Shown here piece after piece: positions 5,984-10,574 of a stretch of 36,093 nt of DNA. The position numbers were made by a program, and so were the translations under genes. Numbering within the stretch: position 1 is the stretch's first letter; every line of letters begins with the position of its first letter. The notes under the pieces were generated by a model. It was not told where the DNA came from and ran no database searches. It saw only the letters and a list, made by a program, of their open reading frames with translations. The stretch is from Thermoproteota archaeon (lineage in GTDB: Archaea > Thermoproteota > Thermoprotei > Thermoproteales > Thermocladiaceae). Location: contig JAADER010000036.1 in the NCBI GenBank assembly GCA_013153275.1, forward strand, positions 1 to 36,093. The letters are read 5' to 3'.

Positions 5984-6973
5984 GTGTCAATTACATATAT
6001 AATAGCTGGAGCTATAGCAGTAGTAGCTGGTGGCCTTCTCTTTACTAGAGCAATAGAGTACGTAGCATCACGACTCGGACTAACAACATCGCTCGTTGGC
6101 GCCGTAATATCTCCAATATTGACCTCGCTCCCAGAGCTTACGGTCATAGTGATCGCACTCGTTCATGGTGGTGTATCTGGTGCAGAGATAAGTATTGGCA
6201 CTGTGATAGGAGAGCCATTTATGGCTTCTACAATAATATATCCAATGCTCATACTTGCTGCATTACTATCATATCTAAGAAAGAATAGAACAACACCCTA
6301 CCTGTCTCCCGGAAGAGAAGTCATAATACCTTTCACAGTGTTCACTATACTCTTCCCGCTTGTGCTTATTCCTCACTACATTAGAGGATTAATATCTAGA
6401 TACGTTATTGGTTCTCTCCTTATAGGATCATATCTTGCATATGTTGTAACAATGTCTAGAAGAGGGATGCTCATCGAGCAGGAAGAGATTAGCAGCGTTC
6501 TTTTCTCGCGTTTCATAGAGAATGATATTGTAGCATCTATAATACAGCTCGTGATATCTGTAGCGTTAATATACTTTGGATCAGAGTTCCTTGTTAATGG
6601 TGTTATATATGTTTCGAAGCTTCTCAATATCGATCCTCAGCTTCTATCTATAGTCATAGTTCCCTCTGTATCGGCACTTCCGGAATCTGTTGTTGGTCTT
6701 CACTGGGCATATCAGGGAAAGGATACTCTTGCGGTTGAGTCGATAGTTGGTGAGAAGGTTCTATACTCCACGTTTTATCCAGGAATGACTCTGATTGTTA
6801 CTGAGTGGGTTTTGAAGATTAGCGCCGTTTTCTGTGTCATAGTGACTGTCCTTATATCTCTAGCGATGATATATTACATAGCTAGGGGGAGAGTTGGGTA
6901 CGAGATAGCTGGTATAGGCCTTGCAGGATATGTGATCTATATACTTCTAATGTTGCATGTTCTCGCTTTATGA
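5984..6973 (+). CDS. Sodium/calcium exchanger (CaCA) family membrane protein
   Basis: A likely cation antiporter of the cytoplasmic membrane. The 329-residue protein is almost all hydrophobic segments, consistent with about ten membrane helices. The two inverted alpha repeats of the family are visible. The first is near residues 39-60 (GAVISPILTSLPELTVIVIA). The second is near residues 220-240 (VPSVSALPESVVGL). Each contains the S-L/x-P-E ion-site core, with conserved Gly/Glu downstream (IGTVIGEPF and IVGEKVLYS). A middle loop rich in charged residues (SRRGMLIEQEEIS) links the halves. The GTG start is 13 nt after the L18e stop, so the two may be co-transcribed. The transported ion cannot be read from sequence. 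Confidence 0.88.
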   Translation: MSITYIIAGAIAVVAGGLLFTRAIEYVASRLGLTTSLVGAVISPILTSLPELTVIVIALVHGGVSGAEISIGTVIGEPFMASTIIYPMLILAALLSYLRKNRTTPYLSPGREVIIPFTVFTILFPLVLIPHYIRGLISRYVIGSLLIGSYLAYVVTMSRRGMLIEQEEISSVLFSRFIENDIVASIIQLVISVALIYFGSEFLVNGVIYVSKLLNIDPQLLSIVIVPSVSALPESVVGLHWAYQGKDTLAVESIVGEKVLYSTFYPGMTLIVTEWVLKISAVFCVIVTVLISLAMIYYIARGRVGYEIAGIGLAGYVIYILLMLHVLAL

Positions 6974-6983
6974 GTGGAGTTGT

Positions 6984-6996
6984 TGCTTAAATATTT
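6984..6996 (+). promoter_or_regulatory. Putative TATA box of the DUF1611 gene
   Basis: TGCTTAAATATTT is centred near 6990, about 34 bp before the ATG at 7024. A purine run (CGGG) just before the ATG may act as a weak ribosome-binding site. Confidence 0.5.
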
Positions 6997-7023
6997 AACA
7001 GCATCTCTATACTGAGCTTCGGG

Positions 7024-8109
7024 ATGGAGAGGGATGTGTTAAAGAAATTGAAAGCTAGGGCGATAGTGCTCGCAGAAGGCAAGTTCGGAGACCTGACCGG
7101 GAAGACCTGCAACATACTTGTAATGTATAGTGGCTGGAGAAGAGTCCGTGTAGAGTCCGTCATAGATTCGAGGCATGCCGGAAAAGATGCGGGAGAGGTT
7201 CTCAGAGTAGGTAAGCTAGGGATACCGGTTGTGGCTAGTCTAAGAGAGGCGCTTGAGATAGGAGATCCTGACACGCTTATAGTGGGCATATCTCCCGTAG
7301 GTGGCCGGCTTCCACAAGAATATCGTAGAACAATTATAGAAGCTATAGAGCATGGTTTAAATGTGTGGAGTGGTCTTCATATTTTTCTAAGCGAGGACGA
7401 GGAGATATCGAGGATTGCCAGAGCAAGAGGAGTCTCAATAATAGACTTCAGAAAACCACCAAAGAACCTGAGAATATGGTCAGGAGACATACTAAATGTA
7501 AATGCTGTAAGAGTGCTCATCGCAGGTACTGACTGCTCAGTAGGAAAGAACGTGACATCCATAGAGCTCGTAAGAGAGCTTGAGAGAAGGGGGCTGAAGG
7601 TCGGTCTAGTAGGCACAGGACAGACAATGCTCATGGTAGGCGCAGACGCCGGCACTGTCGTAGATGCTGTCCCAGCAGACTTCGTTCCAGGAGAAGTTGA
7701 GAGACACGTCGTTGACCTAGATAAGGAAGGGTTCAACATCATAGTGATCGAGGGCCAAGCATCTCTCCTACATCCAGCATACTCGCAGGTCACTCTAGGA
7801 ATATATTACGGTTGCATGCCCAGTGGGATAGTGCTCTGTCACGACCCTTGGCGAACATATAGAGAGAGCTTTGAACATATTAAACTGAAAGTACCTAGCA
7901 TAGAGGAGGAGATAAACGCTGCAAGAGCTCACCTAGGGAATATAAATGTTCTTGCAATATCAGTAATGGGCAAAGACAGGACAAGGGAAGAGATACTGGA
8001 GACCTGCAGATATCTAGAAGAGAGATACGGTATAACAAGCGCTGATCCCAGAGTAGATATCAGGAGAATAGCTGACAGAGTGGAAGATCTTCTTAGAGCT
8101 CTAACTTGA
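7024..8109 (+). CDS. DUF1611 protein, DgcN-like (putative D-glutamate N-acetyltransferase)
   Basis: A DUF1611-family protein of 361 residues. The N-terminal half is a Rossmann-like domain (DTLIVGISPVGGRLP, residues 84-97). The C-terminal half is a P-loop NTPase-like domain whose phosphate loop GTDCSVGK occupies residues 168-175, followed by GLVGTGQTMLMVGADAG and IIVIEGQASLLHP. From the literature as I recall it, DgcN members N-acetylate D-glutamate and work with DgcA, an enolase-superfamily racemase that turns N-acetyl-D-glutamate into the L-form. The neighbouring convergent gene is exactly such an enolase-superfamily epimerase, overlapping this one by 17 nt at the 3' ends. That pairing supports, but does not prove, a shared acyl-amino-acid pathway. 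The family assignment is firm; the reaction is inferred. Confidence 0.85.
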   Translation: MERDVLKKLKARAIVLAEGKFGDLTGKTCNILVMYSGWRRVRVESVIDSRHAGKDAGEVLRVGKLGIPVVASLREALEIGDPDTLIVGISPVGGRLPQEYRRTIIEAIEHGLNVWSGLHIFLSEDEEISRIARARGVSIIDFRKPPKNLRIWSGDILNVNAVRVLIAGTDCSVGKNVTSIELVRELERRGLKVGLVGTGQTMLMVGADAGTVVDAVPADFVPGEVERHVVDLDKEGFNIIVIEGQASLLHPAYSQVTLGIYYGCMPSGIVLCHDPWRTYRESFEHIKLKVPSIEEEINAARAHLGNINVLAISVMGKDRTREEILETCRYLEERYGITSADPRVDIRRIADRVEDLLRALT

Positions 8110-9175
8110 CACCGAGACCAGGTTCACCCGGAAGAATCATTCTATCGCCCTCATATGTTACACCTCCCTCTGCTCTTACATCTACGGACTCTATAAGCAG
8201 AGGAGAGTCAAGATCAACATAATCTACATCACATGCAGCCGCGATACATGCAGCCGCGGTAATAGCAACCTTGGTCTCTAACATACATCCAACCATCACT
8301 TTCAGACCTAGCTCTCTAGCGAGCTTACATGCACCGTAACCTTCAAATATGTCTCCAAACTTCATGAGCTTCATATTTATCCCATCACAGGCATCGTGAG
8401 ACCACGCTGTGACGAGATCTCTCACGCTCATTATGGTCTCGTCCATTATGACAGGTATAGAAGTAGAGTACTTTATCGATCTATGTTCTCTAATCATCCA
8501 TCTAGGCAAAGGTTGTTCAATAAGTTCAACATTGTCATAACGCTCAAGCATCCTTACAAACCTCTGAGCAGTCTTGAGATCTCTCCAGCCCTGGTTCGAG
8601 TCAATCCTTATCTTAACGTTGCTGGGAACGTTCTCGAACAGAGTCCTTATCCTCTCAGAGTCTCTCTCAGGATCTCCAAGCTTCACCTTGAGTATCCTGA
8701 AGCCTCTGGAGATGTACTCTCTAGCCTCTCTAAGCATGTCATCTGGATCTGATAGGCTGACAGTGATGTCAGTAATAAGCTCTCTCTTCTCTGATCCAAG
8801 GAACCTCCATAGCGGAAGACCGAGCTCTCTACAGGATAAGTCAACAAAAGCCATTTCTATACCAGCTAAAGCATCTTTAGGACTCTTAACGTAGGTGTTG
8901 AAGATCCTCTTGGCCTTCTCTACATCTAGTCCAGTAAGCTCCGACCTTATAGCATACTCAAGAAAGAGTTCCAAAGCATCGACTATGGCTGACGCAGATG
9001 ATCCTACTACGGCTCTGGATGGAGATGATTCGCCATATCCAACATTTCCTCTCTTATCTACAACGCATATATATACAACATCCTCCTGCTCACGTCCTCC
9101 GAGTGCTGTCCTGAAGACCTTTCTCAACTTGACCTTAACCTTTTTAACCTTGATCTCAGATATAGGATAGGACAT
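8093..9175 (-). CDS. Enolase-superfamily dipeptide epimerase / DgcA-like racemase
   Basis: A mandelate-racemase/muconate-lactonizing-type enzyme of 360 residues. All catalytic landmarks of the L-Ala-D/L-Glu epimerase group are present at family positions: the KxK acid/base pair K163 and K165, metal ligands D192, E220 and D245, the opposing lysine K269, and the C-terminal DxD (D321, D323) that binds the substrate amino group in dipeptide epimerases. It inverts the alpha-carbon of a dipeptide or N-acyl amino acid. Next to the DUF1611 gene, N-acetyl-glutamate racemization is the attractive substrate guess. The ATG at 9175 follows a TATA-like box by about 26 bp, so the mRNA is probably leaderless. 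Substrate remains inferred. Confidence 0.9.
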   Translation of the reverse strand: MSYPISEIKVKKVKVKLRKVFRTALGGREQEDVVYICVVDKRGNVGYGESSPSRAVVGSSASAIVDALELFLEYAIRSELTGLDVEKAKRIFNTYVKSPKDALAGIEMAFVDLSCRELGLPLWRFLGSEKRELITDITVSLSDPDDMLREAREYISRGFRILKVKLGDPERDSERIRTLFENVPSNVKIRIDSNQGWRDLKTAQRFVRMLERYDNVELIEQPLPRWMIREHRSIKYSTSIPVIMDETIMSVRDLVTAWSHDACDGINMKLMKFGDIFEGYGACKLARELGLKVMVGCMLETKVAITAAACIAAACDVDYVDLDSPLLIESVDVRAEGGVTYEGDRMILPGEPGLGVKLEL

Positions 9176-9195: not shown

Positions 9196-9208
9196 GGTGT
9201 TATTAAAT
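9196..9208 (-). promoter_or_regulatory. Putative TATA box of the epimerase gene
   Basis: On the minus strand the sequence reads CATTTAATAACAC, centred about 27 bp upstream of the ATG at 9175. It overlaps the first bases of the C/D RNA candidate on the other strand. Confidence 0.5.
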
Positions 9209-9269
9209 GATGAGGGTGCGGTCAGTGGACCCGCCTCAGATCGGTGAAGAAGCTAGACTACGCTGAAAC
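9204..9269 (+). ncRNA. Candidate C/D box guide sRNA
   Basis: The gap between the epimerase and the next gene contains ATGATGA at 9207-9213, a perfect C box (RUGAUGA). GTGAAGA at 9244-9250 is a C' box with one mismatch, and CTGA at 9263-9266 is a perfect D box. Exactly 12 nt (9251-9262) separate C' and D, the spacing archaeal guides prefer. The guide is complementary to CGUAGUCUAGCU, which has U and A spaced like tRNA U8 and A14; the fifth base upstream of D would point to G10. No clean D' box is seen, and 9218-9234 can fold into a 6-bp hairpin with one bulge. A TATA-like box sits 25 bp upstream. Judged from sequence only. Confidence 0.6.
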
Positions 9270-10255
9270 TATATAAGAATGCTCTCACACGCATTATCAA
9301 CTACACTTCTAGGAGCATTAAAGAGGCGCAATACGAGTCTCATCTGTCTTCTACTGAACACTTGAACACCTCTATCAGCAAGATAAGACGAGCAAGCCCT
9401 CGATAGAGGACACAAGACAAGACCTTTGATCGGGCAAGCACTGTCTCTCGATCTCGAGTCATCACTAAATAGGCAGAATTTTCTACCTATCACAGAAATA
9501 TATATCGATAACAGTATCTGACTAGTGTTCAGTCGATCTTTCATAATGTTAAACACCTCTAAGCTTCTCCTCCTCAAGACATCCCACACAGTTTTAAAAG
9601 GTTCATCCGGTGCTAACTTAGCACATACGGGCAATATCTTTAGAACATATCTGCTCTCTCCAACATATCTATTCAGGACGTCTCTGACAGGGACCAGGAT
9701 ACCTGTTCTCAGGAAGACCTTGATAACGTGAATATCTATGTGAGGCGGAACCTTCTCAATAGCTCCAAGCTCAAACTCAGTTCCTTTAAGAACATTGTTG
9801 ATCACGTACACGAAGGCTTGAGATATCCTGTCCCGTAGACCTACTCTTCCAGCCTCTTCAAATATCTTGAGACAGCTTCTTGAGGTAATTAACGTCTCGC
9901 TCAGTCTCCTAGAGCTCTCTCTTATAGCCTCAAGTTCTTTTTCTGTTATTTTTCTAGATTTTTCAAGTATTTCACTTAATGTTGTACCTGTGCTCTCTAT
10001 GTCAGATATCTTGTTAATTATATTAAATATCTTTAGAAGCTCCTCTACAAGCTCCCTGACTCCTCTTCTCTTAATAATCTCTATAACAGTGTCCTTATTA
10101 AAGATTTCAGTTATAGATCTTATTAACCTAGCCTCGTTAGAGAGCGTTACTAGGACGTTCATGAGCTTATCCTCGCTCTCAGCGACGTCTCTCCTGACGA
10201 TCTCGCAGACTCTTTCAATTGCTTCCTCATCTATCTTGAACGCGCTGAGCAACAT
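9269..10255 (-). CDS. Divergent HhH-GPD/endonuclease III-like protein with C-terminal Cys cluster (tentative)
   Basis: A 328-residue protein. Its first 130 residues are charged and helical. Residues 143-190 resemble the endonuclease III core: AFVYVINNVLKG, then KVPPHIDIHVIKVFLRTGILVP, comparable to the family's VDTHVxRVxxRLGL. Asp174 would be the catalytic aspartate. Near the C-terminus four cysteines, C261-x12-C274-x7-C282-x5-C288, recall the iron-sulfur cluster of endonuclease III, but that family has x6-x2-x5 spacing. The lysine of bifunctional glycosylases is not obvious. A longer frame to 10498 exists, but that part is Ser/Thr-rich, antisense to hypC, and rejected. The ATG at 10255 lies 22 bp from a TATA-like box shared with hypC. 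A DNA-repair role is inference. Confidence 0.6.
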   Translation of the reverse strand: MLLSAFKIDEEAIERVCEIVRRDVAESEDKLMNVLVTLSNEARLIRSITEIFNKDTVIEIIKRRGVRELVEELLKIFNIINKISDIESTGTTLSEILEKSRKITEKELEAIRESSRRLSETLITSRSCLKIFEEAGRVGLRDRISQAFVYVINNVLKGTEFELGAIEKVPPHIDIHVIKVFLRTGILVPVRDVLNRYVGESRYVLKILPVCAKLAPDEPFKTVWDVLRRRSLEVFNIMKDRLNTSQILLSIYISVIGRKFCLFSDDSRSRDSACPIKGLVLCPLSRACSSYLADRGVQVFSRRQMRLVLRLFNAPRSVVDNACESILI

Positions 10256-10266
10256 AAGTATCGACG

Positions 10267-10281
10267 TACGGTAAATAAAGC
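10267..10281. promoter_or_regulatory. AT box shared by divergent genes (10255 minus and hypC)
   Basis: GGTAAATAAAG lies midway between the two starts (10255 and 10302). It is about 25 bp from each, so one box could drive two leaderless transcripts. Confidence 0.5.
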
Positions 10282-10301
10282 AGACACTTATATTCTCTAG
10301 C

Positions 10302-10574
10302 ATGTGCTGGGCGGTTCCTGGAGTCGTGGTAGAAATTGATAGAGAGAACAATATTGCGACAGTAGACTTCGGAGGAGTACAGAGACAGGTCATAGTCGCT
10401 GTTGAGAACATAAATGTTGGCGACATAGTGCTTGTACATGCTGGACTTATCATATCTAAACTAGATGAGAAAGAGCTTGAAGAGTACAGGAGACTCATGG
10501 AGGAGTTTGAGAGAGCTATCGAATCTCAAGAAGAGCATATGCATCAAGAGTATTTAGTCGAAAGCTCACAATAG
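10302..10574 (+). CDS. hypC: HypC/HupF hydrogenase maturation chaperone
   Basis: HypC binds the Fe(CN)2CO precursor with HypD and delivers it to the large subunit of NiFe hydrogenases. The 90-residue protein begins MCWAVPGVVVEI, matching the family N-terminus MCLAIPGxVxxI with the essential Cys2. The OB-like core follows (ATVDFGGVQRQV, VGDIVLVHAGLIISKLDEKE), and the tail is acidic and helical. No hydrogenase structural gene or other hyp gene is in the window. It is a tail-to-tail neighbour of CooT, overlapping it by 59 nt (10516-10574). The ATG start is about 26 bp from a TATA-like box. Confident in family. Confidence 0.93.
   Translation: MCWAVPGVVVEIDRENNIATVDFGGVQRQVIVAVENINVGDIVLVHAGLIISKLDEKELEEYRRLMEEFERAIESQEEHMHQEYLVESSQ

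Follow-up and report, generated by a model that had tools for sequence, protein, structure and literature searches.

A gene for a DUF1611 protein and one for a dipeptide-epimerase homologue meet tail to tail in the archaeal contig analyzed here (36,093 nucleotides from a member of Thermoproteota, called the window below), and the question raised by this locus is whether the two proteins form the D-glutamate pathway of DgcN and DgcA, as had been suggested, or another route built from the same families. A Shewanella paper (PMC10845958) cites DgcN-DgcA as a route that leads from D-Glu to L-Glu. The Pfam label of DUF1611 is still "unknown function", and DgcN is the sole named case found in the present study.

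The gene pair and its conservation within the order

Features of the locus are listed in Table 1. The two convergent open reading frames with their overlapping ends, the P-loop motif in a protein matched by the Pfam DUF1611 model, and the complete catalytic set of the epimerase homologue (by residue alignment to B. subtilis AEE) were all found as originally predicted. Both are real genes under purifying selection, more than chance ORFs. The proteins of the two nearest congeners are 80-81% identical to DUF1611 and 73-74% identical to the epimerase, variation between congeners is concentrated at third codon positions in both genes, and NG86 dN/dS values against the congeners are about 0.04-0.07 and 0.13-0.14, respectively, with dS near saturation.

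Table 1. Coordinates of the gene pair and of associated features in the window
Feature	Position	Strand	Basis
DUF1611 protein (361 aa, ATG)	7024..8109	+	DUF1611_N Rossmann-like and P-loop domain; related to DgcN but distinct from it
Dipeptide-epimerase-type enolase-superfamily protein (360 aa, ATG)	8093..9175	-	Pfam, NCBIfam, PDB 1jpm best, residue table
Convergent overlap of both coding 3' ends, 17 nt	8093..8109	.	ORF coordinates; overlaps in five relatives
P-loop GTDCSVGK, DUF1611 residues 168-175	7525..7548	+	Translation; invariant GTD, G174, K175
TATA-like CTTAAATATTTAA, ~30 nt upstream of DUF1611 start, likely own promoter	6986..6998	+	Read from sequence
TATA-like TTTAATAA, ~25 nt upstream of epimerase start, likely leaderless transcript	9200..9207	-	Read from sequence

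Since a TATA-like element lies about 25-30 nt upstream of each start, independent transcription is likely, and separate promoters for the two genes are probable; coordination would then occur via linkage and regulation, with no single transcript. In the two nearest species, CTTAAATAT is conserved at the DUF1611 element and CTTATATA is read at the epimerase position. The interval from the epimerase start to the following ORF holds a likely C/D-box sRNA gene (9203-9268, + strand; C box ATGATGA, D box CTGA), which is nearly unchanged in two related species and gives a weak match to Rfam sR2 (17.2 bits against a gathering score of 42). That next ORF (9269-10498, - strand, 409 aa) is without Pfam or NCBIfam match, and its homologue has about 328-329 aa in two congeners.

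The tail-to-tail pair was found in all six pair-bearing genomes of the order, i.e., five of five of the window genus and one of a different family (G026), with convergent overlaps of 17, 17, 17, 9, 4, and 6 nt, and the layout is probably older than the split of the two families. Throughout the genus the same genes stand upstream of DUF1611 (for a Na/Ca-exchanger-like protein, ribosomal L18e, and a FAD enzyme), and the epimerase-side neighbors vary among species; between the genus and G026 most flanking genes differ, the immediate neighbors on both sides among them. The Na/Ca-exchanger-like gene (5984-6973, + strand) is directly upstream of DUF1611 in 5/5 genus genomes and overlaps it by 4 nt in one congener (L033). 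A scan of genome contigs gave a single locus, and among the genomes compared, complete ones included, DUF1611 is absent from the remaining genera of the order.

Linkage and co-occurrence in other lineages

A deep Thermoproteota lineage (G145) has a same-strand operon of DUF1611, epimerase, and PmbA/TldD genes; the two genes are divergent neighbors in G098 and G272 and one gene apart in G257, and a M14 peptidase gene is beside the pair in G222. On haloarchaeal plasmids, a non-DgcN DUF1611 gene is directly followed on the same strand by a gene annotated as "dipeptide epimerase"; several of these plasmids also have D-aminoacylase, NlpC/P60, or DacB genes in the vicinity (both NlpC/P60 and DacB in Halorussus), and one haloarchaeal DUF1611 locus has no adjacent epimerase gene. 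On a Haladaptatus plasmid (L083:2115-7069), a D-aminoacylase, a divergent epimerase without DxD (T/I at 321/323), DUF1611, and a second epimerase with DxD form one operon. Thermofilaceae-like genomes have both genes tens of kilobases apart.

In the class (81 genomes), DUF1611 is present in 23, the epimerase clade, counted at E < 1e-40, in 27, and both in 20. The epimerase clade thus occurs in 20/23 genomes with DUF1611 and in 7/58 without it (Fisher p = 2e-10), and collapse by genus gives 9/10 against 6/20 (p = 0.005); both tests control only partly for phylogeny. Since seven class genomes have the epimerase without DUF1611, the epimerase can stand alone.

Because the convergent pair is kept in the order, and other orientations as well as co-occurrence are found elsewhere, a functional linkage of DUF1611 and the epimerase is well supported. 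The neighborhood comparison proposed with the original prediction therefore shows the pair linked in relatives and, additionally, in same-strand operons of haloarchaea and of another Thermoproteota lineage. The convergent orientation had been called unusual; it is real and long-conserved, but it is confined so far to this order, and the same families form same-strand operons elsewhere. Unrelated genes might have stayed adjacent simply because overlapping 3' ends resist separation, and such an overlap is inherently difficult to break and the six convergent cases have one common ancestry. We consider this chance inheritance of a neighborhood very unlikely, as the pair stays while most flanks change between the genus and G026, the other orientations in G145, G098, G272, and haloarchaea point to repeated association, and the two families co-occur genome-wide.

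Relationship to DgcN, DgcA, and dipeptide epimerases

The DUF1611 protein belongs to its family by both Pfam domains (PF07755 DUF1611, 204.5 bits, and PF17396 DUF1611_N, 96.2 bits, both above gathering), by its P-loop, and by conserved columns: in an alignment of 29 rows, two DgcN among them, every invariant column is present in the window protein, and GTD, G174, and K175 are invariant throughout. Its best PDB match is 2g0t from T. maritima (211 bits), with 7xrj and 2obn also found, and its top NCBIfam match is DgcN (NF041892), at 194.1 bits against a cut-off of 480. In the DUF1611 tree it falls within a nine-row archaeal clade (window, its genus, G026, G047, G048, and G060; support 100/95) adjoining an epimerase-linked clade of family f29, and outside the branch of DgcN and 2obn, which is separate from the archaeal clades at a point where long branches meet.

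The epimerase gave Pfam matches to MR_MLE_C (132.6 bits) and MR_MLE_N (32.6 bits). Its residues K163, K165, D192, E220, D245, K269, D321, and D323 align with K160, K162, D191, E219, D244, K268, D321, and D323 of B. subtilis AEE, so that the dipeptide-epimerase signature (KxK, D, E, D, K, and the dipeptide-binding DxD at 321/323) is complete. The best PDB match is 1jpm, a L-Ala-D/L-Glu epimerase; the best NCBIfam match is NF041118 of the same activity, at 172.8 bits against a cut-off of 500 and with Gly in the Arg24 column, which places the protein outside that family. DgcA (NF042940) comes second, at 159.4 bits against a cut-off of 400, and for a congener's epimerase it is the top-scoring model (186 bits). 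The epimerase tree unites DgcA, 4gfi, and E. coli YcjG in a clade (100/100) to which the window epimerase does not belong. AlphaFold models from two-row alignments were of low confidence for both proteins (mean pLDDT 41 and 49).

For comparison, the same NCBIfam models give 551.4 bits (DgcN) and 507.9 bits (DgcA) for the pair of Ruegeria TM1040, which has a DgcN almost identical to PDB 7xrj. Differences extend to the 20s loop, which is Leu-Gly or Leu-Ser in the window epimerase and its orthologues; a Leu-Gly-type loop is also found in the E. faecalis and C. hutchinsonii dipeptide epimerases. DgcA and YcjG have an Arg in this loop, as does B. subtilis AEE (Arg24), where it anchors the glutamate side chain. 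The DgcA loop Arg, Tyr54, and Gly299 are replaced in the window epimerase by Leu, Val, and Glu, respectively.

The D-glutamate pathway as such was rejected, as the pair scores below both NCBIfam cut-offs, is placed apart from DgcN and DgcA in both trees, and does not have the expected loop residue. By its sequences the pair is homologous to DgcN/DgcA, but it is a variant and not a member of that system. Of the original prediction, the likeness to DgcN/DgcA therefore holds as homology within the same families and not as identity, given scores below the cut-offs and separate clades; D-glutamate specificity is not supported, given the same scores, far under both cut-offs, the clades, and Leu/Gly in place of the loop Arg; and the evidence agrees with the softer alternative, a related route for acyl-amino acids. 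A D-glutamate pathway that still functions, but whose sequences have diverged too far for the family models, would explain why both families appear with complete motifs and why DgcN is the top and DgcA the second-best NCBIfam match, or even the best in the congener. With 194/480 and 159/400 bits, a DgcA and YcjG clade that excludes all archaeal epimerases, and none of the three DgcA residues kept, we judge such drift improbable.

Partners of DUF1611 and a proposed function

DUF1611 subclades differ in their partners. The window and f29 proteins (motifs GTDC..GKN, TGQTM, and EGQA) and the haloarchaeal ones (EGQA) are paired with an enolase-type epimerase, those of the DgcN subclade (EGQG) with DgcA, and those of Phaeobacter and Ruegeria (EGQG) with an ornithine-racemase-like PLP enzyme (269 bits, cut-off 480). 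In Thermofilaceae and others, a DUF1611 gene with GTDS and mostly PGQG stands with a threonine-synthase-like PLP gene and a gene for an unassigned protein of about 480 aa. The alanine of EGQA is common to DUF1611 proteins paired with non-DgcA enolase epimerases, and KGQA is found in a Streptomyces protein. The distribution of partners over subclades points, more strongly than does the one pair, to DUF1611 as the supplier of a substrate for an enzyme that works at the alpha carbon. We tentatively propose a general role for DUF1611 as a partner that N-acylates amino acids and that has been joined, on four or more occasions, to unrelated or distantly related alpha-carbon enzymes (DgcA/YcjG-type, other enolase-type epimerases, ornithine-racemase-like PLP, and threonine-synthase-like PLP), each subclade having its own partner and the crenarchaeal pair being a non-glutamate branch.

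Several observations were made on these loci. On the Phaeobacter and Ruegeria plasmids (L086:4941-7192 and L087:4911-7228), DUF1611 overlaps by 4 nt the gene of a non-homologous PLP enzyme of the alanine/ornithine racemase family, which stands in the epimerase's place. The three-gene operon was found in L036, L046-L049, L051, L052, and L099-L104 (e.g., L047:5896-9376); its threonine-synthase-like gene in L036 scores 404.6 bits with NF004996, over the cut-off of 266, and the relative in the window's own genome is below it (149.6/266). The third protein has SSGGKES and CGxCxKC motifs, is PP-loop-like, and occurs in 12 of the 81 class genomes, every one DUF1611-positive, sometimes unlinked; it gave no match in Pfam, NCBIfam, PDB, or plasmid searches. 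SSGGKES is suggestive of MurL, an ATP-dependent, AMP-forming enzyme without known domains (PMC5808125), but homology to it was rejected for want of support from these searches.

For the window pair, our preferred reading, held with moderate confidence, is a two-enzyme stereo-inversion module, in which DUF1611 acts first, N-acylating an amino acid, and the epimerase then inverts the acylated center. Homology, complete motifs, conserved linkage, and co-occurrence were observed; acyl-transfer chemistry, substrate, direction, and third step are inferred. By analogy to DgcN, DUF1611 would N-acylate a free amino acid, most likely from acyl-CoA; for DgcN itself, N-acetylation reportedly precedes racemization (a 2023 report), and acyl-CoA is said to be used. 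The epimerase would then turn the D and L forms of this product into each other by removing a proton from the alpha carbon and adding one back, in a Mg2+-dependent two-base mechanism of Lys165 and Lys269 (K162 and K268 in B. subtilis numbering), as described for the Lys pair of YkfB (PMC5808125). An unlinked M20-type amidohydrolase or peptidase could free the L-amino acid, which would then be catabolized; the same genome has four M20 matches, which count for the module. Against it count that no deacylase gene is linked to the pair in the window, that the epimerase is present without DUF1611 in seven class genomes, and that, to our knowledge, acyltransferase activity has been reported for no DUF1611 protein outside DgcN. 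The substrate amino acid is probably not glutamate, the candidate with the least support, and a small or hydrophobic amino acid, or a dipeptide residue, would fit the loop better.

Dipeptide epimerases also use DxD, as their ammonium-binding motif, and the natural substrate may therefore be a dipeptide; since DgcA also keeps DxD, the motif cannot separate dipeptide from N-acyl substrates. An ordinary peptide-salvage epimerase (L-Xaa-D/L-Xaa), with DUF1611 acting on its dipeptide to modify or activate it in a reaction that depends on CoA or ATP and is unrelated to N-acetylation, would agree with 1jpm as best PDB match, with the L-G loop shared with the E. faecalis and C. hutchinsonii enzymes, and with the peptidase genes adjoining the pair in G145, G222, and Halorussus. 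The intact DxD and the repeated presence of peptidase genes close to the pair in other lineages make this a serious rival, though we regard it as less likely than the module, as DgcA has DxD too and the sole characterized DUF1611 relative carries the name of an N-acetyltransferase.

If DUF1611 is indeed a general N-acylating partner and the window pair its non-glutamate branch, inversion of D-amino acids or N-acyl-amino acids operates in hyperthermophilic Thermoproteota. The switching of partners gives a testable prediction, i.e., that the substrate of a DUF1611 subclade should match that of its partner racemase, and would also show how D-amino acids or epimerized peptides are dealt with where bacterial-type murein is absent. 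It is also a caution that not every DUF1611-epimerase pair is a D-glutamate pathway.

Among known systems, DgcN-DgcA of Pseudoalteromonas and Ruegeria likewise places DUF1611 beside an enolase-superfamily racemase, with the identical P-loop GTDCSVGK, and its catalytic lysines and DxD are also in the window pair. In contrast to it, the window DUF1611 has a longer N-terminus and EGQA for EGQG, the genes are convergent instead of same-strand, and the epimerase is without the loop Arg. B. subtilis AEE (1jpm/1tkk) and the E. faecalis epimerase (3jva), the best structural relatives by sequence, share all catalytic and DxD residues, but Arg24 of AEE is Gly in the window epimerase, whose loop is nearer to the E. 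faecalis and C. hutchinsonii enzymes. T. maritima provides the best PDB and NCBIfam matches of the pair (DUF1611 2g0t and epimerase family NF041118), but the window epimerase is far under the NF041118 cut-off, and 2g0t has EGQG and no functional assignment. Haloarchaeal operons on Haladaptatus, Halorussus, and Natrinema plasmids combine, as here, a non-DgcN DUF1611 with EGQA (about 41-44% identity to the window protein) and a non-DgcA epimerase; these are same-strand, often with D-aminoacylase or peptidases, and fall in separate clades in both trees.
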